DNA of 35,826 nucleotides from Hyphomonadaceae bacterium. GTDB lineage: Bacteria > Pseudomonadota > Alphaproteobacteria > Caulobacterales > Hyphomonadaceae. Of this stretch, positions 9,622 to 16,780 are shown in pieces. The stretch is from positions 1-35,826 of the forward strand of contig JAIXVM010000205.1 of NCBI GenBank assembly GCA_027482995.1, read 5' to 3'. A program made the translations under genes and the position numbers. The first letter of the stretch is position 1. Each line of letters begins with the position of its first letter. Below the pieces are notes generated by a model. The model saw only the letters and a program-made list of their open reading frames with translations, was not told where the DNA came from and searched no databases.

Positions 9622-11616
9622 CTATCCCTTCACAAGCCAGGCTTTTTCAACAAGCCTGGTCACGTCGCCCATGATCTCGGTGATCTTGAAATCCTTCGGC
9701 GTGTAGACGCGGGCGATGCCCATCTGTTTCAGCGCGCGGGCATCTTCCGGCGGGATGATGCCGCCGACGACGACCGGCACATCGCCGAGACCGGCCGCGC
9801 GCAGTTCGGAGATCGTCTCGCGCACGAGATCGAGATGGCTGCCGGACAGGATCGAGAGGCCGACGACGTGGGCGTTGGCCTGCTTGGCCTGGGCGGCGAT
9901 TTCGGCCGGTGTGAACCGGATGCCCTCATACACAACTTCCATGCCGACCGCCCGGCCGCGCGCCGCGATCTGCTCGGCGCCGTTGGAGTGGCCATCCAGA
10001 CCGGGCTTTCCGAGCACGTATGTCAGTGTACGGCCGAGTGCCTGTGACACGCGGGCGACTTCGGCCTTGACCGTTTCGATATCCTCGCCGCCATCCGAGC
10101 CGACCACCAGCGCAACGCCGGTCGGCGCGCGGAACTCGCCGAACACTTCGCGCAGCACCGTGCCCCACTCGCCCGTGGTAACGCCGGCTTTCGCGCAGGC
10201 AATCGACGGCTCCATGATGTTGCGGTTTTCAGACGCGGCCGCGCGCAAGGCGGCAAGTGCGGCATTGGCCGCCTTGCCGTCGCGGGCTGCGCGCCAGGCC
10301 TTGAGATCGCGCACCTGGGCGGCCTCTTCGGCGGGGTCGACCGTCATGATGGCGCCGTCGCCGGAGCCCAGCGGGCTGTCTTCCGTCTCCGTGTAGCGGT
10401 TGACGCCGACGACCGTCATTGCGCCCGACTCGATGGCGCGGATGCGTTCGATATGCGCGCCCACGAGGCTTTCCTTCATGAAGCCGATCGCGTCCTTTGC
10501 GCCCCCGAGGGCGTCGATCTTGGCCAGCGTCAGACGCGCTTTCTGTTTGAGTTCCTCGGTCTTCGCAGCGATGACATGGCTGCCATCAAAGATGTCTTCG
10601 AACTCGAGAAGGTCTGTTTCGTAGGCGAGGATCTGCTGCAGGCGTAGCGACCATTGCTGGTCCCATGGGCGCGGCAGGCCCATCGCTTCGTTCCAGGCGG
10701 GAAGCTGCAGCGCGCGGCAACGGGCTTTCTTGGAGAGGGTGACGGCGAGCGCCTCAATCAGGATGCGGTAGACATTGTTTTCCGGCTGCGGCTCGGTGAG
10801 GCCGAGGGAGTTCACCTGCACGCCATAACGGAACAACAGCGCCTTCGGATCGGTGACGCCGTAACGCTCGCGGCCGATCTCTTCCCAGAGGTCGACGAAG
10901 GCGCGCATCTTACAGAGTTCCGTTACGAAACGGACTCCCGCATTCACGAAGAAGGATATCCGGCCGAAGACGGTTTCAAAGTCTGACTCCGGAACTTGTC
11001 CGCCGGCCTTCACGGTATCGAGCACGGCGATCGCCGTGGCGAGCGCATAGGCCAGCTCCTGTTCCGGCGTCGCGCCGGCTTCCTGCAGATGGTAGGAGCA
11101 GACGTTCATCGGGTTCCATTTTGGAACCTCCATATAGCACCAGCTCACCATGTCGCCGATCAGGCGCAGCGAGGGCTCGGGCGGGAACACGTAGGTGCCG
11201 CGGGAGAGGTATTCCTTGACGATGTCGTTCTGGGTGGTGCCGCGCAGCTTCTTGCGGCTTTCCCCGCGCTCGTCGGCGAGCGCCACATAGAGCGCCAGCA
11301 TCCAGGCGGCCGGGGCGTTGATCGTCATCGAGGTGTTCATCTGTTCGAGCGGCAGCTGGTCGAACAGGAGGCGCATGTCGCCGAGGTGCTTCACCGGCAC
11401 GCCAACCTTGCCGACTTCGCCTTTCGAGAGGATGTGATCGGCGTCGTAGGCCGTCTGGGTGGGCAGGTCGAAGGCGATGGAGAGACCGGTCTGGCCCTTG
11501 GACAGGTTCAGACGGTACAGCTCGTTCGATTTCTTGGCCGTTGAGTGGCCCGCATAGGTGCGGAAGATCCACGGTTCTTCAGGTGCGTGCTGATAGTCCC
11601 CGCGCGTCTGGCTCAT
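9622..11616 (-). CDS. ecm: ethylmalonyl-CoA mutase (B12-dependent)
   Basis: 664 residues. The N-terminal acyl-CoA mutase barrel opens with RTYAGHSTAKKSNELY and contains FDLPTQTAYDADH and EQMNTSMTIN. The C-terminal cobalamin-binding domain carries the DxHxxG motif as DGHSNGAEQIA (Asp541, His543) and SILSGSH. AGHSTAKKSNELY and DGHSNGAEQ are typical of the MeaA/Ecm branch rather than methylmalonyl-CoA mutase. It converts (2R)-ethylmalonyl-CoA to (2S)-methylsuccinyl-CoA in the ethylmalonyl-CoA pathway; ccr, three steps of biology earlier, is 3.9 kb away. The ATG at 11616 has a strong GGGAGG. The frame continues upstream another 214 codons, but that part is antisense to another gene and is not counted. 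Confidence 0.93.
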   Translation of the reverse strand: MSQTRGDYQHAPEEPWIFRTYAGHSTAKKSNELYRLNLSKGQTGLSIAFDLPTQTAYDADHILSKGEVGKVGVPVKHLGDMRLLFDQLPLEQMNTSMTINAPAAWMLALYVALADERGESRKKLRGTTQNDIVKEYLSRGTYVFPPEPSLRLIGDMVSWCYMEVPKWNPMNVCSYHLQEAGATPEQELAYALATAIAVLDTVKAGGQVPESDFETVFGRISFFVNAGVRFVTELCKMRAFVDLWEEIGRERYGVTDPKALLFRYGVQVNSLGLTEPQPENNVYRILIEALAVTLSKKARCRALQLPAWNEAMGLPRPWDQQWSLRLQQILAYETDLLEFEDIFDGSHVIAAKTEELKQKARLTLAKIDALGGAKDAIGFMKESLVGAHIERIRAIESGAMTVVGVNRYTETEDSPLGSGDGAIMTVDPAEEAAQVRDLKAWRAARDGKAANAALAALRAAASENRNIMEPSIACAKAGVTTGEWGTVLREVFGEFRAPTGVALVVGSDGGEDIETVKAEVARVSQALGRTLTYVLGKPGLDGHSNGAEQIAARGRAVGMEVVYEGIRFTPAEIAAQAKQANAHVVGLSILSGSHLDLVRETISELRAAGLGDVPVVVGGIIPPEDARALKQMGIARVYTPKDFKITEIMGDVTRLVEKAWLVKG

Positions 11617-11637: not shown

Positions 11638-11678
11638 TGTTGCGGCGCAACATGGCCGAGCGCCTGCGCACTGGCAAG
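11638..11678 (-). promoter_or_regulatory. candidate operator region of ecm
   Basis: A 15-bp inverted repeat, TGTTGC-GGC-GCAACA (11638-11652), lies 22 bases upstream of the ecm ATG. Beyond it is CTTGCCAGTG (minus strand, 11669-11678). Both TGCGGCGCAACAT (11641-11653) and CTTGCCAGTG recur upstream of ccr. They probably bind a shared regulator; identity unknown. Confidence 0.5.
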
Positions 11679-11770
11679 GCCCGGCAAAACTGTGCCAAGC
11701 CCAGCTTGAATGCAGGCGGTGAGCCACGACATCTTCTGAATTGAACTTAACCCATTCCGGACGCGGACAA

Positions 11771-12277
11771 GTGCCAAGCCAAAAACAAGATCCCGCCGTT
11801 GCACTGAAGACCGCACTGTCCCTTCGGGCCGGCTCGCTGATGGCGTTTCCCGCCGGGGCCGTGTTGCTGGCCGTTCTCGAGCGGGGCTGGCTGGCCATCG
11901 GCGCCCTTGCCGCCGCGATGCTGGCCGTGAGCCTGTTGGAGCGGCGCCGCTTTGGCCGGGCTCTGGGCATCCAGATCCCGTCCAACTCAGGCACGATCGT
12001 CATGGGGCTGGCCGTGCGTTTCGGCCTGCTGACGAGCTTGTTCGTGGTTACGCTCGGCGTGCTCGCCCTCTTCCGCGACACCGCCCTGTCGCGTGTGCTC
12101 GGGTGGCCAGACCTTGCCGTGATCGCCCTGTCGGCCGGCGGCGCCTTGCTGGCCAACGCCTTCAGCGCCCGCCTCGTGCCGATCCGCACCGCCGCGCCAG
12201 GCCGGCCCGCGCCCAAGGGCGCACCCGCCGAGACGGTGATCCTCGAAGGCGAAATCATTGACCGTGATACGCAGTGA
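11771..12277 (+). CDS. predicted membrane protein of unknown function
   Basis: About 168 residues from the GTG at 11771; a TTG at 11741 would add ten residues, and neither has a clear ribosome site. Hydrophobic segments at roughly residues 20-60 (two passes split by ERGW), 80-105 and 125-145 suggest about four membrane spans. A cytoplasmic tail of charged residues follows, ending near EGEIIDRDTQ. I do not recognise a family. The gene is divergent from ecm and 55 bp before a SemiSWEET gene on the same strand, with which it may be co-transcribed. Reality is supported by the consistent hydrophobic pattern; function cannot be assigned. Confidence 0.65.
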   Translation: MPSQKQDPAVALKTALSLRAGSLMAFPAGAVLLAVLERGWLAIGALAAAMLAVSLLERRRFGRALGIQIPSNSGTIVMGLAVRFGLLTSLFVVTLGVLALFRDTALSRVLGWPDLAVIALSAGGALLANAFSARLVPIRTAAPGRPAPKGAPAETVILEGEIIDRDTQ

Positions 12278-12332
12278 CGCGCTCACTGAAGCAGCTTAGC
12301 TAGCAACAGCAGGCAATCGGGAGCGCGATGAG

Positions 12333-12593
12333 GTGACGGATGTTTTCGGTTTCGTAGGCGCTTTCCTGACGACGCTTTCGTTTGTGCCGCAGGCCTTGCT
12401 GGTTCTGCGGACCGGCAAGACCGAGGGTATTTCGCTGGCAATGTATGCCCTGTTCACGATCGGGGTGGCGGCCTGGCTGATATACGGTGTGCTGGAAAAT
12501 GCCCTGCCGGTGATCATCGCGAACGCGATCACGCTGGTTCTGGCCTCACTCATTCTGTCGATGAAGGCACGTGCCGTTCTGTTTCGGTCGTGA
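12333..12593 (+). CDS. SemiSWEET-type PQ-loop sugar transporter
   Basis: 86 residues forming one three-helix PQ-loop repeat. The signature TTLSFVPQALLVLRTGKTEG (Pro19-Gln20) followed by SLAMYALFTIG is characteristic of bacterial SemiSWEETs (MtN3-like). These dimerise in the inner membrane to make a small facilitated sugar pore. The start is a GTG with GGGAG about 9 bases upstream. The protein ends with a short basic tail. The substrate is inferred to be a mono- or disaccharide from the family only. A 95-bp gap separates it from the gntR gene. Confidence 0.9.
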   Translation: MTDVFGFVGAFLTTLSFVPQALLVLRTGKTEGISLAMYALFTIGVAAWLIYGVLENALPVIIANAITLVLASLILSMKARAVLFRS

Positions 12594-12653
12594 TCCGTCA
12601 GGCGCGTTTCTGAACTGTCCACACCCATCACCGATCCGTCGCGCGCCCCATGC

Positions 12654-12679
12654 TTGACAATCGCCTATAATTTTATACT
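12654..12679 (+). promoter_or_regulatory. candidate promoter of the gntR gene
   Basis: A perfect TTGACA (12654-12659) is followed by AT-rich sequence holding TATAAT at 12666-12671 and TATACT at 12674-12679. Spacing to TATACT is 14 bases, shorter than ideal. From TATACT, transcription would start at or within a few bases of the ATG at 12689, giving a leaderless mRNA. Confidence 0.5.
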
Positions 12680-12690
12680 GTATACAGTAT
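12675..12690. promoter_or_regulatory. perfect 16-bp palindromic operator overlapping the gntR start codon
   Basis: ATACTGTATACAGTAT is its own reverse complement. Its core TGTATACA resembles operators of FCD-type GntR regulators. It covers the -10 region and ends on the first two bases of the gntR ATG, so binding would block its promoter; autoregulation is the natural inference. Confidence 0.75.
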
Positions 12691-13351
12691 GCAACAAATC
12701 GGAAACCTCGACACACTCGCCGGCTCCCTTGTTTCGAGGGTTCGGGACGCTGTGCATGATGGCACGCTGCCGGATGGGGAGCGGGTCAATGAAGTGCACC
12801 TCGCCGAGAAACTGGGTGTCAGCCGAACGCCCCTGAGGGAAGCGCTGAACCGTCTCGTCTCGGAGCAGATCCTGACCTTGCGGCCTCGGCATGGGTACTC
12901 CGTTCCGGCAATGACGCTGGCCGGTTTTGAGGCCGAGTATGCCATCCGGCCGATTCTCGATGTCGCCGCGCTGGAACTGGCCGGCCTGCCCTCCCGCGAG
13001 GCGCTCGACGAGATTGACCGGCTCAATCATGCGATCCTCGCGGCACAGACGATGGCCGGGCGCATTGACGCGGATGATGCGTTTCACCTGAAGCTGCTCG
13101 CGCATTGCCCCAACCCGGTTCTGCTGGACCTGATCCGGCACATGATGCTGCGCACGCGCCGATATGAGTTCGCCTATTTCCGCGAGTGCCGCCCTTTCCT
13201 GTCGATGGCCGACGAGCATGCCCGGATCATCGTGGCGCTGCGGCGCGGCGACCTGGCCGGGGCCTGCGATGCGCTGCGCAGCAACCTGACTTCTGGGCTG
13301 GACCCCATCCGCGTCTGGCTCAGCGCCCGTACTCCCCCCTCCCAAACCTGA
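12689..13351 (+). CDS. GntR family transcriptional regulator, FCD (FadR-type) subfamily
   Basis: 220 residues. The winged helix-turn-helix at about 10-72 (LVSRVRDAVHDGTLPDGERV, LAEKLGVSRTPLREALNRL, LRPRHGYSV) is typical GntR. The C-terminal FCD domain (about 80-210) contains the His/Asp set expected for a metal- or ligand-binding pocket (DAFHLKLLAH, DEHARIIVALRRGD). No ribosome site precedes the ATG; an operator palindrome sits there instead, so the mRNA is probably leaderless. The next gene, a serine hydrolase, starts 12 bp after the stop and is likely in the same operon and a regulatory target. The ligand is unknown. Confidence 0.9.
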   Translation: MQQIGNLDTLAGSLVSRVRDAVHDGTLPDGERVNEVHLAEKLGVSRTPLREALNRLVSEQILTLRPRHGYSVPAMTLAGFEAEYAIRPILDVAALELAGLPSREALDEIDRLNHAILAAQTMAGRIDADDAFHLKLLAHCPNPVLLDLIRHMMLRTRRYEFAYFRECRPFLSMADEHARIIVALRRGDLAGACDALRSNLTSGLDPIRVWLSARTPPSQT

Positions 13352-13362
13352 AAGTGAATTCC

Positions 13363-14463
13363 ATGACGAGATGGTCTCCGGCCTTGCGCCTTGCCTTGAT
13401 GTGCCTCGCGGTGACCGCGTGCGCATCCCCGCCGCAGGCGCCTGCCGCGATTGCTCCGCAGGCGGAAGAAACACCTGTCTTCCCGGAAGCGGCGGAGGCC
13501 GCTCTCAAGGCCGCGCTGGCGGGTGACGCCTATCCAAAGACAACGAGCATATTGATCATCAGGGACGGCGAGACCGTCTTCGAGACGTATGCCGGCACGG
13601 GCGCGCCGGACAAGCTCAACGATACGCGGTCGGCGACCAAGACGATTGTGGCGCTGGCCGTGGGCATCGCCATAGCTGAGGGCGATCTGGCCTCCGCCGA
13701 CACGCCCATCTGGCCTTTGTTGGAAGCGCGCGCGCCTGCCGGTGCAGGCGATGATTTGACGCGCGGGATCACGGTGCGTGACCTGATGACCATGACCTCG
13801 GCTTTCCATTGCGACGACAATAACGATACGCCGGGCCAGGAAGAGTACATGTATCCGGAGACCTCCTGGACGGAATTTGCGTTGGGGCTGCCTTCCGAGC
13901 CAGGCTGGACGCGCGCCGAGGACGGGCTTGGCCCCTGGCGGTATTGCACGGCCGGATCGTTCCTGCTGGGGCAAGTGCTTGAAGCGGCAACGGGTGAGCC
14001 GGTCGACCAGTATGTCCGTACACGGCTGTTCGAACCCTTGGGCATCACGGCGGCGCAATGGGACACATCGCCGAGCGGCGAGTTCCAGACCGGCGGCGGA
14101 CTTGAGCTGACCTCAAAGGACCTCGCGAAGATCGGCTGGATGCTGACGGACGGTGGCCGCTGGCAGGGCAAGCAGGTCGTGCCGGAGGCCTGGATCAAGG
14201 AGATGACGACGATCCGGCGCGCCGCGTTTGAAGGCATGAGTTACGGCTATCAGATCTGGCAGCGGCCCTATGTGACGCCCTGCGGGACATTCGAGGCCTG
14301 GTTCATGGCGGGCAATGGCGGCAACCATGTCCTGTCGTTCCCGGCGTTGAACACAGCCGTTGTCCTGACGCGCGAAGCCTACAACACACGCGGCATGCAT
14401 CCGCAGTCATTCGAACTGGTCGAGCGCTTTGTGCTGCCCGCTCTGGCCTGCGGCGCGCCCTGA
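13363..14463 (+). CDS. class C beta-lactamase-like serine hydrolase lipoprotein
   Basis: 366 residues. A signal peptide with lipobox (VTAC, Cys20) indicates export. The penicillin-binding/class C beta-lactamase fold is seen from the SxxK motif in TRSATKTI (Ser90, Lys93), the second-motif tyrosine in WRYCTAGS (Tyr194) and a C-terminal GNGG that replaces KTG. Family members include D-aminopeptidases, esterases and 6-aminohexanoate hydrolases, so a true beta-lactamase role should not be assumed. It follows the gntR gene by 12 bp and abuts, back to back, a converging D-amino acid aminotransferase gene. The frame is open upstream into gntR, but the signal peptide fixes this start. Confidence 0.88.
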   Translation: MTRWSPALRLALMCLAVTACASPPQAPAAIAPQAEETPVFPEAAEAALKAALAGDAYPKTTSILIIRDGETVFETYAGTGAPDKLNDTRSATKTIVALAVGIAIAEGDLASADTPIWPLLEARAPAGAGDDLTRGITVRDLMTMTSAFHCDDNNDTPGQEEYMYPETSWTEFALGLPSEPGWTRAEDGLGPWRYCTAGSFLLGQVLEAATGEPVDQYVRTRLFEPLGITAAQWDTSPSGEFQTGGGLELTSKDLAKIGWMLTDGGRWQGKQVVPEAWIKEMTTIRRAAFEGMSYGYQIWQRPYVTPCGTFEAWFMAGNGGNHVLSFPALNTAVVLTREAYNTRGMHPQSFELVERFVLPALACGAP

Positions 14464-15354
14464 TCAGGCGCGCTCGAGCGTCCAGGGCGCGGCAGCCGGA
14501 ATGTCGGCGCCCATCGCTTCGTAATAGAGGCGCTGGATTTTCCGGGTGACCGGGCCCGGCGTTCCGGCGCCGACGACGCGTCCGTCGATATGCGTGACGG
14601 GCGCGACCATCGCGCCGGCGGAGGTCGTGAAAGCTTCGGCGGCGTTTACCACTTCGTCCGGCGTGAAGGCGCGCTCGGTGATGGTGAATCCGCCCTTCCC
14701 GCGCAGGGCCATGACGCCGGCGCGCGTGATGCCGGGAAGGATGGCGGGCGACAGGTCGCGGGTGATGATCTCCCCTGCCCGGGTGACGATCCAGGCATTG
14801 GCGGAGGCGGCCTCGGTGACGAACCCGTCCTCGACCATGAACGCGGTATCGGCGCCCTGCTGCTTAGCGGCGCGGTAGGCCAGCCCCTGCGAGAGAAGCT
14901 GCGTGGTTTTCATGTCGCGCCGGCTCCAGCGGGTATCATCGAGAAACACCGCCTTGATGCCGTCCCGCGCGGCCGCACCGATGAGGGCCTTGGCATCGGC
15001 ATAGGCGAAAACGGTGGGGGTGAACGTCTCAGGGCCTGCAAAGTCGCGCGCGTCATAGGCGCCGCCGGTGACTTCCAGATAGACCAGACCTTCGGTCAGG
15101 TCATTGCGTACGATCAGTTCCGTATGAAGCGCGGCCCAGCCGGACGCGTCATGCGGATTCGGGATGTCGATTCCGGCCAAAGTCCGCGTCAGTCGGGCGA
15201 TATGCCCGTCCAGATCGACGAGACGGCCACCGTAAACCGCTGTCACTTCGTAGGCGGCATGCGCGAACAGGAACCCGCGATCGAGCGGTGAAATATGTGC
15301 CTCGCCGAGCGGCAAAAACGATCCATTTAAGTGGACGATGGGACACACGGGCAT
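14464..15354 (-). CDS. D-amino acid aminotransferase-like class IV PLP enzyme
   Basis: 296 residues of fold-type IV aminotransferase. The start region VHLNGSFLPLGEAHISPLDRG matches D-alanine transaminase-like proteins. The PLP lysine lies in RDMKTTQLLSQ (Lys149), followed by VEDGFVTEAASAN (Glu181) and PGITRAGV for phosphate binding. It would transfer amino groups between D-amino acids and 2-oxo acids in the cytoplasm; branched-chain aminotransferase or aminodeoxychorismate lyase are relatives, but the sequence looks closest to D-amino acid aminotransferase. The stop lies directly against that of the serine hydrolase (convergent, no gap). The ribosome site is weak (AAGG about 9 bases upstream). 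Confidence 0.86.
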   Translation of the reverse strand: MPVCPIVHLNGSFLPLGEAHISPLDRGFLFAHAAYEVTAVYGGRLVDLDGHIARLTRTLAGIDIPNPHDASGWAALHTELIVRNDLTEGLVYLEVTGGAYDARDFAGPETFTPTVFAYADAKALIGAAARDGIKAVFLDDTRWSRRDMKTTQLLSQGLAYRAAKQQGADTAFMVEDGFVTEAASANAWIVTRAGEIITRDLSPAILPGITRAGVMALRGKGGFTITERAFTPDEVVNAAEAFTTSAGAMVAPVTHIDGRVVGAGTPGPVTRKIQRLYYEAMGADIPAAAPWTLERA

Positions 15355-15387
15355 TCAATATGACCTTGAACAATCGGGACGGGTTTG

Positions 15388-15434
15388 TGCGGCGCAACAT
15401 TTTTCTTGCACTGCGGCATGACACTTGCCAGTGT
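15388..15434 (+). promoter_or_regulatory. candidate regulatory region of ccr
   Basis: Contains TGCGGCGCAACAT (15388-15400), TTGCACTGCGGCA (15406-15418) and the inverted repeat ACACT-TGCC-AGTGT (15421-15434), which includes CTTGCCAGTG. The first and last elements also occur upstream of ecm. It lies 75-121 bp before the ccr start and probably holds operators for a pathway regulator. Confidence 0.5.
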
Positions 15435-15508
15435 GCCCGCGCCAAACGGGGCTGTGAAGACACCGTAGAGTGTCGGACAACGGAAACATTTCAAAACGGA
15501 GGAAAGTG

Positions 15509-16780
15509 ATGGCCACCAAGACGGCAGGTCGTGTCACCAAAGACATCTACGAAGTCGGCGAAATCCCGCCGGAGTTCCATGTTCCCAAGATGATGCACGC
15601 CTGGACGATCCGGCGCGAGCGTCATGGCCGCCCCTCCACGGCCATGCTGGTCGAGCAGGTGCCGGTGCCTGAAATCGACTCGGACGAAGTGCTCGTCCTC
15701 GTGATGGCGGCCGGCGTCAACTATAATGGCGTCTGGGCGGCGCTCGGCGAGCCGATTTCCCCGTTCGACGGCCACAAGCAACCTTTCCACGTCGCCGGCT
15801 CGGATGCCTCGGGCATCGTCTGGGCGGTCGGCAAGCGCGTCACCCGCGTGAAGCCGGGCGACGAAGTCGTCATTCACTGTAACCAGGACGACGGCGACGA
15901 CGAGGAGTGCAATGGCGGCGACCCGATGTTCTCGCCCAGCCAGCGCATCTGGGGTTATGAGACGCCAGACGGCAGCTTTGCCCAGTTCTGCCGCGTGCAG
16001 GCCCGCCAGTGCATGCCGCGCCCGAAACACCTGACCTGGGAAGAGAGCGCCTGTTACACGCTGACGCTTGCGACCGCCTACCGGATGCTGTTCGGCCACC
16101 GCCCGCACGTCCTCGCGCCGGCGGACAACGTGCTCGTCTGGGGTGCCTCCGGCGGCCTCGGCTGCTTTGCCGTCCAGCTTTGCGCCGTGACCGGCGCCAA
16201 CGCGATCGGCGTGGTCTCGTCCGAAGACAAGCGCGACTATGTGATGAGCCTCGGCGCCAAAGGCGTGATCAACCGCAATGACTTCAATTGCTGGGGTCAG
16301 CTGCCGAAAGTGAACGGCCCGGAATTCGCCGACTACATGAAAGAAAGCCGCAAGTTCGGCAAAGCGATCTGGGATATCACCGGCAAGAAAGACGTCGACA
16401 TGGTGTTCGAGCACCCGGGCGAGTCGACCTTCCCGGTCTCCGTCTTCGTCGTGAAGCGCGGCGGCATGGTCGTGATCTGCGCCGGCACCACCGGATTTAA
16501 CCTGACGATGGATGCCCGCTTCCTGTGGATGCGCCAGAAGCGCGTGCAGGGTTCGCACTTCGCCAACCTGAAACAGGCGTCGGAAGCCAACCAGCTGGTG
16601 ATCAACCGCCGCATCGATCCCGGCATGTCGGAAGTCTTTCCGTGGTCGGACATTCCGCTGGCCCACGAGAAGATGCTCGACAACAAGCACCTGCCTGGAA
16701 ACATGGCCGTGCTCGTCACCTCGCCGAAACCCGGCCTTCGCACGGTCGAGGATGTGCTGGCCGTCAACGGCCAGGGCTGA
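15509..16780 (+). CDS. ccr: crotonyl-CoA carboxylase/reductase
   Basis: 423 residues. A medium-chain reductase with the near-invariant Ccr stretches NYNGVWAALGEPI, HVAGSDASGIVW, IWGYETPDGSFAQF and VWGASGGLGCFAVQL (NADPH-binding). Residues that appear to match the CO2 pocket of the Kitasatospora enzyme are Asn73, Tyr150-Glu151 (Phe-Glu in that enzyme) and His348 in QGSHFAN. It reductively carboxylates crotonyl-CoA to (2S)-ethylmalonyl-CoA, the defining step of the ethylmalonyl-CoA pathway. The ATG at 15509 has CGGAGGA at correct spacing; the frame is open to 15470 without support. Ecm, which acts later in the same pathway, is nearby on the minus strand. Confidence 0.96.
   Translation: MATKTAGRVTKDIYEVGEIPPEFHVPKMMHAWTIRRERHGRPSTAMLVEQVPVPEIDSDEVLVLVMAAGVNYNGVWAALGEPISPFDGHKQPFHVAGSDASGIVWAVGKRVTRVKPGDEVVIHCNQDDGDDEECNGGDPMFSPSQRIWGYETPDGSFAQFCRVQARQCMPRPKHLTWEESACYTLTLATAYRMLFGHRPHVLAPADNVLVWGASGGLGCFAVQLCAVTGANAIGVVSSEDKRDYVMSLGAKGVINRNDFNCWGQLPKVNGPEFADYMKESRKFGKAIWDITGKKDVDMVFEHPGESTFPVSVFVVKRGGMVVICAGTTGFNLTMDARFLWMRQKRVQGSHFANLKQASEANQLVINRRIDPGMSEVFPWSDIPLAHEKMLDNKHLPGNMAVLVTSPKPGLRTVEDVLAVNGQG

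Follow-up and report, generated by a model that had tools for sequence, protein, structure and literature searches.

The window considered here is a stretch of 35,826 nucleotides, contig C68 of assembly G000 (3.0 Mb in 335 contigs, 84.6% complete), from a genus that we place tentatively in the Hyphomonadaceae. It carries the divergent genes ecm and ccr of the ethylmalonyl-CoA (EMC) pathway, the C2 growth route of bacteria without the glyoxylate cycle, whose early steps are common with the synthesis of polyhydroxybutyrate (PHB). Our subject is a 13-mer, TGCGGCGCAACAT, that occurs upstream of both genes. Most likely it belongs to an operator for the PHB-sensing repressor PhaR, which would then directly control the pathway. 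The features of the locus are as follows; the −35 and −10 positions are inferred from conservation.

9622 to 11616, minus strand: ecm, ethylmalonyl-CoA mutase (B12-dependent, 664 aa), named from context and not by an Ecm-specific model
11638 to 11652, no strand assigned: PhaR-type box of ecm, TGTTGC-GGC-GCAACA, a perfect 15-bp inverted repeat (TGTTGCGGCGCAACA), recognized by its conservation in the genus
11649 to 11654, minus strand: inferred −10 of ecm, CATGTT, at a spacing of 17 bp to the −35
11672 to 11677, minus strand: inferred −35 of ecm, TTGCCA, a position kept as CTTGnn; lies within the 10-mer at 11669 to 11678
15385 to 15399, plus strand: PhaR-type box of ccr, TTGTGC-GGC-GCAACA, with 6 bp between it and the inferred −35
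15406 to 15411, plus strand: inferred −35 of ccr, TTGCAC, at a conserved spacing after the box
15429 to 15434, plus strand: inferred −10 of ccr, CAGTGT; the 10-mer at 15424 to 15433 straddles the spacer end and this hexamer
15509 to 16780, plus strand: ccr, crotonyl-CoA carboxylase/reductase (423 aa), TIGR01751 at 637.2 bits against a cut-off of 378.55

Ccr also matches PDB entry 4gi2 with an E value of 5e-221. The product of the other gene matches NCBIfam mutase domains with a score under the Mcm equivalog cut-off, and its top-ranking PDB matches are methylmalonyl-CoA mutase chains (E 6e-112). It was named ecm because it adjoins ccr; the two genes are divergent neighbours in 67 of the 68 named loci in which ccr is visible. 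A second mutase, 35-37% identical, is present in 30 of the 37 genus genomes and was not found in G000, an 84.6%-complete assembly. The next named relative of the genus is Ponticaulis, with 76% identity in Ecm. The Ecm of record CAMEDD010000017.1 (L298) is 98% identical to that of the window, and the title of that record, 'Candidatus Sulfopaludibacter', is probably wrong. A gene for a regulator of the GntR/FCD family (Pfam) sits between ecm and ccr at 12752-13351.

Both copies of the 13-mer in the window, at 11641-11653 and 15388-15400, lie on the plus strand and are therefore opposite in orientation relative to ecm and ccr, which hardly matters because the core is near-palindromic. The G000 assembly holds three exact copies (none in the reversed control), and all three are upstream of EMC pathway genes, the third being at mcd (C300:5218). 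When two 200-bp upstream regions were base-shuffled, a 13-mer was shared in 0.085% of 20,000 trials. The preliminary description of this DNA had located the 13-mer, a second shared element of 10 nucleotides, the perfect inverted repeat at ecm and the swapped order of the elements between the two genes, and in all of these it was accurate.

To these promoters we added those of 36 further genomes of the same genus, giving 37 ecm and 36 ccr promoters (G026 has ecm and no ccr match). Every ecm promoter contains TGTTGC-N3-GCAACA, either exactly or with small changes (TGCTGC, TTTTGC, GCAGCA, GCACAA). The central triplet conforms to RNY in 35 of the 37 by first match; at L117 and L123 the scan met an earlier site first, and the triplet of the actual ecm box is GCC. 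All 36 ccr promoters contain TTGTGC-N3-GCAACA with invariant flanks TTG and ACA, and the triplet, which takes seven forms (ACC, AGC, GGC, GCC, GGT, GCT and AGT), is RNY in each of them. The boxes hold fixed places in the promoters. At ecm, where TTG-N20-CAT is found in 37/37 and CTTG-N20-CATG in 35/37 promoters, the box overlaps the inferred −10 and extends to the presumed transcription start. At ccr, it is followed after 6 nucleotides (27 genomes) or 7 nucleotides (9 genomes) by TTGC, and CTTGC-N19-CANN(G/T)T is present in all 36. This pattern of conservation supports the view that the 13-mer is part of a conserved, putative 15-bp operator common to ccr and ecm. A second strongly conserved block of the genus, TGTGAAGnCnC, lies downstream of the inferred ccr −10, at 15453-15463 of the window.

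The 10-mer, CTTGCCAGTG, is much weaker evidence. It is found at minus 11669-11678 and plus 15424-15433 with no further exact copy in the window, and its extended form, CTTGCCAGTGYGC, is exact only at those two places across the assembly. With up to one mismatch, however, the extended form gave 19 matches against 9 in the reversed control, and a 10-mer was shared in 5.5% of the same number of shuffling trials. When upstream regions of other families were included, 1 of 45 ecm regions and 7 of 44 ccr regions contained the 10-mer; only G000 has it at both genes. We rejected it as a shared operator, as it holds the −35 at ecm but overlaps the −10 at ccr. Judging from these positions, the two copies belong to unrelated parts of the two promoters and are alike by coincidence; this would explain the swapped order of the elements. 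Thus, of the two shared regulatory elements originally proposed, the 13-mer box stands and the 10-mer does not.

We scanned genomes of the genus with two patterns of the box. The first, TGYTGCNNNGCARCA, gave 75 sites against 2 in the reversed control (12 genomes), and the second, TTGTGCRNYGCARCA, 133 against 2 (18 genomes). The surroundings of 40 sites of each pattern were taken, with genes called by a simple codon-usage script, the details of which may err. In the 40 first-pattern, palindromic regions the triplet was RNY at 30 of 31 intergenic sites and at 4 of 9 sites inside called genes, so that some of the intragenic sites are probably chance matches. Second-pattern sites, except those at ccr, were considered in six genomes (G000, G003, G015, G017, G019 and G036). 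The box lies upstream of mcd in all six (in G036 via the first pattern), as it does for a phasin gene and for a regulator gene of the XRE family, and it accompanies a divergent tesB/acyl-CoA ligase pair in five. It also precedes genes for PhaZ (G036 and G019), a PhaC-like protein (G003), Hbd (G000 and G017) and ScoA (G019).

One member of each target family was identified by profile and the remainder by BLAST cluster. The phasin of G000 scores over the cut-off of TIGR01985 (the other five belong to its cluster), as do PhaZ for TIGR01849, Hbd for NF005715 and the ScoA family for TIGR02429. The PhaC-like protein (TIGR01838, 529 bits, cut-off 622.65) and TesB (281.3 bits, cut-off 292.85) fall under theirs. 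Mcd matches PDB entry 6es9 over its full length (E 3e-224) as well as 8ciw, the chain of which is named (2S)-methylsuccinyl-CoA dehydrogenase. Taking a −10-like hexamer 17 bp on, the gap between box and −35 is 5-7 nucleotides at the phasin gene and 7-8 nucleotides at mcd in 6/6 genomes each. In 20 mcm loci, the upstream regions showed two core boxes, both of them inside called genes; this is a weak control because the called genes run together in 18 of the 20 and mcm is probably not the first gene of an operon.

The box fits published PhaR sites, in agreement with the PhaR-type TGC-N3-GCA geometry proposed earlier. The consensus for PhaR of Bradyrhizobium diazoefficiens is TGCRNYGCASMA (PMC6201568), and the Sinorhizobium meliloti site is a palindrome with the core YGCRNYGCR (PMC12542648). 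The PhaR (AniA) regulons of these two species share with the genus the TGC-RNY-GCA operator, outer flanks of the TTG/CAA type, and phasin and depolymerase targets. The likeness may extend to position. At phaP1 of B. diazoefficiens the footprinted PhaR sites lie 6 bp on either side of the −35 (PMC6201568), which matches the layout at ccr, the phasin gene and mcd. In S. meliloti the phasin sites flank the −35, and the site of the depolymerase gene SMa1961 lies between −10 and start (PMC12542648), and this resembles the ecm box, which overlaps the −10 and extends past it. Unlike those regulons, the set found here includes ccr, ecm and mcd. The words 'ethylmalonyl', 'crotonyl' and 'methylmalonyl' do not appear in the main text of the S. 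meliloti paper or of two papers on B. diazoefficiens, and no report of PhaR acting on ccr, ecm or mcd was found in the Creative Commons-licensed PMC main texts that were searched. Earlier work on Methylobacterium, as reported in PMC6520949, ascribed to PhaR a role in the flux of acetyl-CoA. Elements of this kind are known; ccr, ecm and mcd are new as targets, as far as the searched literature shows.

All 27 genomes searched, G000 included, encode PhaR itself (TIGR01848, over cut-off). Its own locus carries variants of the box. Among 24 phaR loci of the genus, 6 have TGC-ATA-GCA and 5 have TGC-ACTA-GCA, in which the spacer is 4 bp; an RNY box is found in 5, at −134 and closer to the adjacent gene. 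In other genera, a core box lies between called genes at 16 of 30 phaR loci (control 2). Eight of the 16 are Rhodobacterales-titled (L381, L382, L384, L385, L387, L388, L389 and L404) and carry TGCTGC- or TTCTGC-RNY-GCAGCA-like boxes, in which they are like the 'TGC-rich' PhaR sites of phaP-phaR in Paracoccus and Rhodobacter. Of the recurrence at other EMC and PHB genes that had been looked for as support, mcd and the phasin gene provide it, and phaR gives no clear instance of it.

Conservation in relatives, also looked for at the outset, reaches beyond the genus. Of 588 stretches confirmed in a scan with an ecm alignment, we used the best 80, a sample that leans towards close relatives for that reason and includes three genus members; records were sorted into Rhodobacterales-type and others by title. 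TGCRNYGCA, the loose core box, was found within 300 bp before ecm in 48 of the 80, against 3 of 80 in the reversed control and none in 80 coding stretches. The strict box was present within 200 bp of ecm in 32 of 80 (1 in the reversed control, shuffle mean 0.03), divided as 30 of 56 other records and 2 of 24 Rhodobacterales-type records. The loose core box occurred at ccr in 33 of the 68 with ccr visible (control 0); where ecm and ccr are separated by one short intergenic region, the same site was counted for both genes. Ponticaulis koreensis DSM 19734 is among the named strains with core boxes in the ecm-ccr region. We sought mcd in 30 genomes of this sample, 18 ecm-box positive and 12 Rhodobacterales negative, and 29 had it. 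The loose core box preceded mcd in 18 of the 29 (control 1/29), comprising 10 of 17 ecm-box positive and 8 of 12 Rhodobacterales genomes; mcd is thus often boxed even where ecm and ccr are not. Five Rhodobacterales-type records (L345, L351, L357, L369 and L372) have a AARTGCGAYGCAAAR site 213-269 bp before ecm, which is unlike the genus PhaR box in appearance.

These observations on conservation, spacing, the triplet rule, the gene set and the presence of PhaR in the genomes searched lead us to regard direct control of the EMC pathway by PhaR as the probable meaning of the shared 13-mer; that PhaR is the binding protein and that repression is the effect, we infer. Like the phasin gene, ccr, ecm and mcd would be bound by PhaR at their TGC-RNY-GCA boxes. 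As long as PHB is absent, the protein would repress ecm by occupying the −10 and start region, and ccr and mcd from just upstream of the −35, the arrangement that the phasin promoter has in these genomes. Once acetyl-CoA is abundant and PHB granules appear, PhaR would be drawn onto the granules, and the EMC pathway would be derepressed together with phasin. Since 3-hydroxybutyryl-CoA is the branch point between PHB and the EMC pathway, the stored polymer would report the C2 supply.

Several observations weigh against this interpretation. The strict box is missing at ecm in 22 of the 24 Rhodobacterales-titled loci, which sets Paracoccus/Rhodobacter-type lineages apart from the genus, and before mcd it is found in only 6 of 29 genomes (3 ecm-box positive, 3 Rhodobacterales). 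In the genus, the phaR promoter lacks a clear RNY box across the 24 loci; in S. meliloti, too, motifs of the phaR region were under threshold and bound only weakly (PMC12542648). Taken alone, the palindrome TTGCNNNGCAA shows no enrichment (44 sites, 61 in the control), some pattern matches fall inside called genes, and the box also stands before genes with an unclear link to PHB, such as those for UrcA-like proteins, TonB receptors and the XRE regulator. The main text on the transcriptome of a Methylorubrum phaR mutant (PMC6520949) does not name ccr, ecm or mcd. PhaR scored over the cut-off in 50 of 50 more distant genomes, box or no box, so that its presence cannot discriminate; its presence or absence was dropped as a test of the link to the box, having no power. 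Finally, a box placed upstream, as it is at ccr and mcd, could serve an activator just as well.

This last point leads to the first of four alternatives, that PhaR exerts opposite control: bound upstream of the −35 it would activate ccr and mcd, and at ecm it would repress. In keeping with this, the box precedes the inferred −35 of ccr and mcd yet lies on the −10 region of ecm, and positive PhaR effects have been reported or suggested for some genes of B. diazoefficiens and S. meliloti (PMC6201568, PMC12542648). The phasin promoter, however, is the classic repressed target and has the same upstream geometry, both here and in B. diazoefficiens. We think, therefore, that opposite control is unlikely.

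A second alternative is that another regulator of overlapping specificity, for example an XRE-family (PraR-like) repressor, binds the box, and that the phasin gene is shared by coincidence or co-regulation. The XRE gene, which we take to be PraR-like, is itself preceded by the box in each of the six genomes. The consensus of PraR in Rhizobium, TTGCAA (PMC4149787), resembles one half of the ecm box. At ccr, in contrast, the left half is TTGTGC in 36 of 36 promoters and lacks TTGC, and TTGCAA is absent from the box TTGTGC-RNY-GCAACA in all of them. Because both the RNY rule for the triplet and the targets, with phasin and PhaZ among them, are those of PhaR, we favour PhaR over the XRE regulator, which we consider a rather improbable candidate.

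The third alternative, a regulator specific to the EMC pathway and of the ScfR (RamB/PccR) or CcrR type, had been raised for the shared element at the start. CcrR of Methylobacterium extorquens, which reportedly belongs to the TetR family, unlike PhaR, and regulates ccr, would be a precedent for control of an EMC pathway gene, and the title of a paper on Methylobacterium says that it does control one. Neighbouring pathways are under such regulators as well, the glyoxylate cycle under RamB in Paracoccus (PMC10370305) and propionyl-CoA carboxylase under PccR in Cereibacter/Rhodobacter (PMC12632250). RamB of Paracoccus denitrificans, of the ScfR family, is, like the box described here, tied to the EMC pathway. 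Unlike it, RamB controls the glyoxylate cycle and senses CoA esters, and its class 2 site consists of two near-identical boxes 18 bp apart (PMC10370305). No such pair is seen in the genus alignments, where by eye there is one conserved 15-bp box per gene, and the phasin gene, tesB and other non-pathway genes carry the same box. It is very doubtful that a regulator of this type is responsible. The last alternative, that the matches reflect chance or shared promoter hexamers, holds for the 10-mer given its frequency in shuffles, its presence at both genes in one genome and its −35 versus −10 region roles, and is next to inconceivable for the 13-mer box in view of its genus- and class-wide conservation and near-empty controls.

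Returning to control by PhaR, one could envision a wider version in which PhaR directly regulates the EMC pathway across the class Alphaproteobacteria, so that the PHB store, and not only CoA intermediates, gates the entry of C2 units. The gene that carries the box would differ by lineage (ecm and ccr in this genus and in many other lineages; mcd, by the loose core box, in 8 of the 12 Rhodobacterales genomes), the control point having been rewired and the link kept. We lean towards this version, with more reserve than for the genus itself. On/off control of the EMC pathway is poorly known, and in the paper on RamB of Paracoccus (PMC10370305) its lowering is put down to 'a yet unknown signal'. 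A PHB-sensing repressor acting on ccr, ecm and mcd would, if true, be a concrete answer that ties storage to assimilation at the branch point, and the promoter sequences suggest that the carbon store of the cell may control the pathway. It would then also bear on the engineering of PHB or of pathway products, as deletion of phaR would be expected to change the flux through the pathway.

The box surveys in the genus also yielded several minor observations. In eight genomes, a box lies about 135-150 bp before a gene whose product, small (about 115 aa) and apparently secreted, is presumably UrcA-like (G000:C328:35943, which is L190 and has no Pfam match, and L195, L197, L207, L208, L218, L222 and L227). 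A protein of 100 aa is encoded directly behind the box at L268:2638-2940 (G036; no Pfam match) and at L296 (G003), and is possibly an unrecognized granule-associated protein. At L198, L219, L221 and L224, the box separates a divergent gene for a peptidase-like protein of about 604 aa from that of a small protein of about 60 aa. Lastly, SulP-type transporters are encoded behind the box at L193 (Sulfate_transp and STAS domains, Pfam), L200 and L213; one may speculate that such a transporter carries bicarbonate, which would fit the carboxylase role of Ccr.

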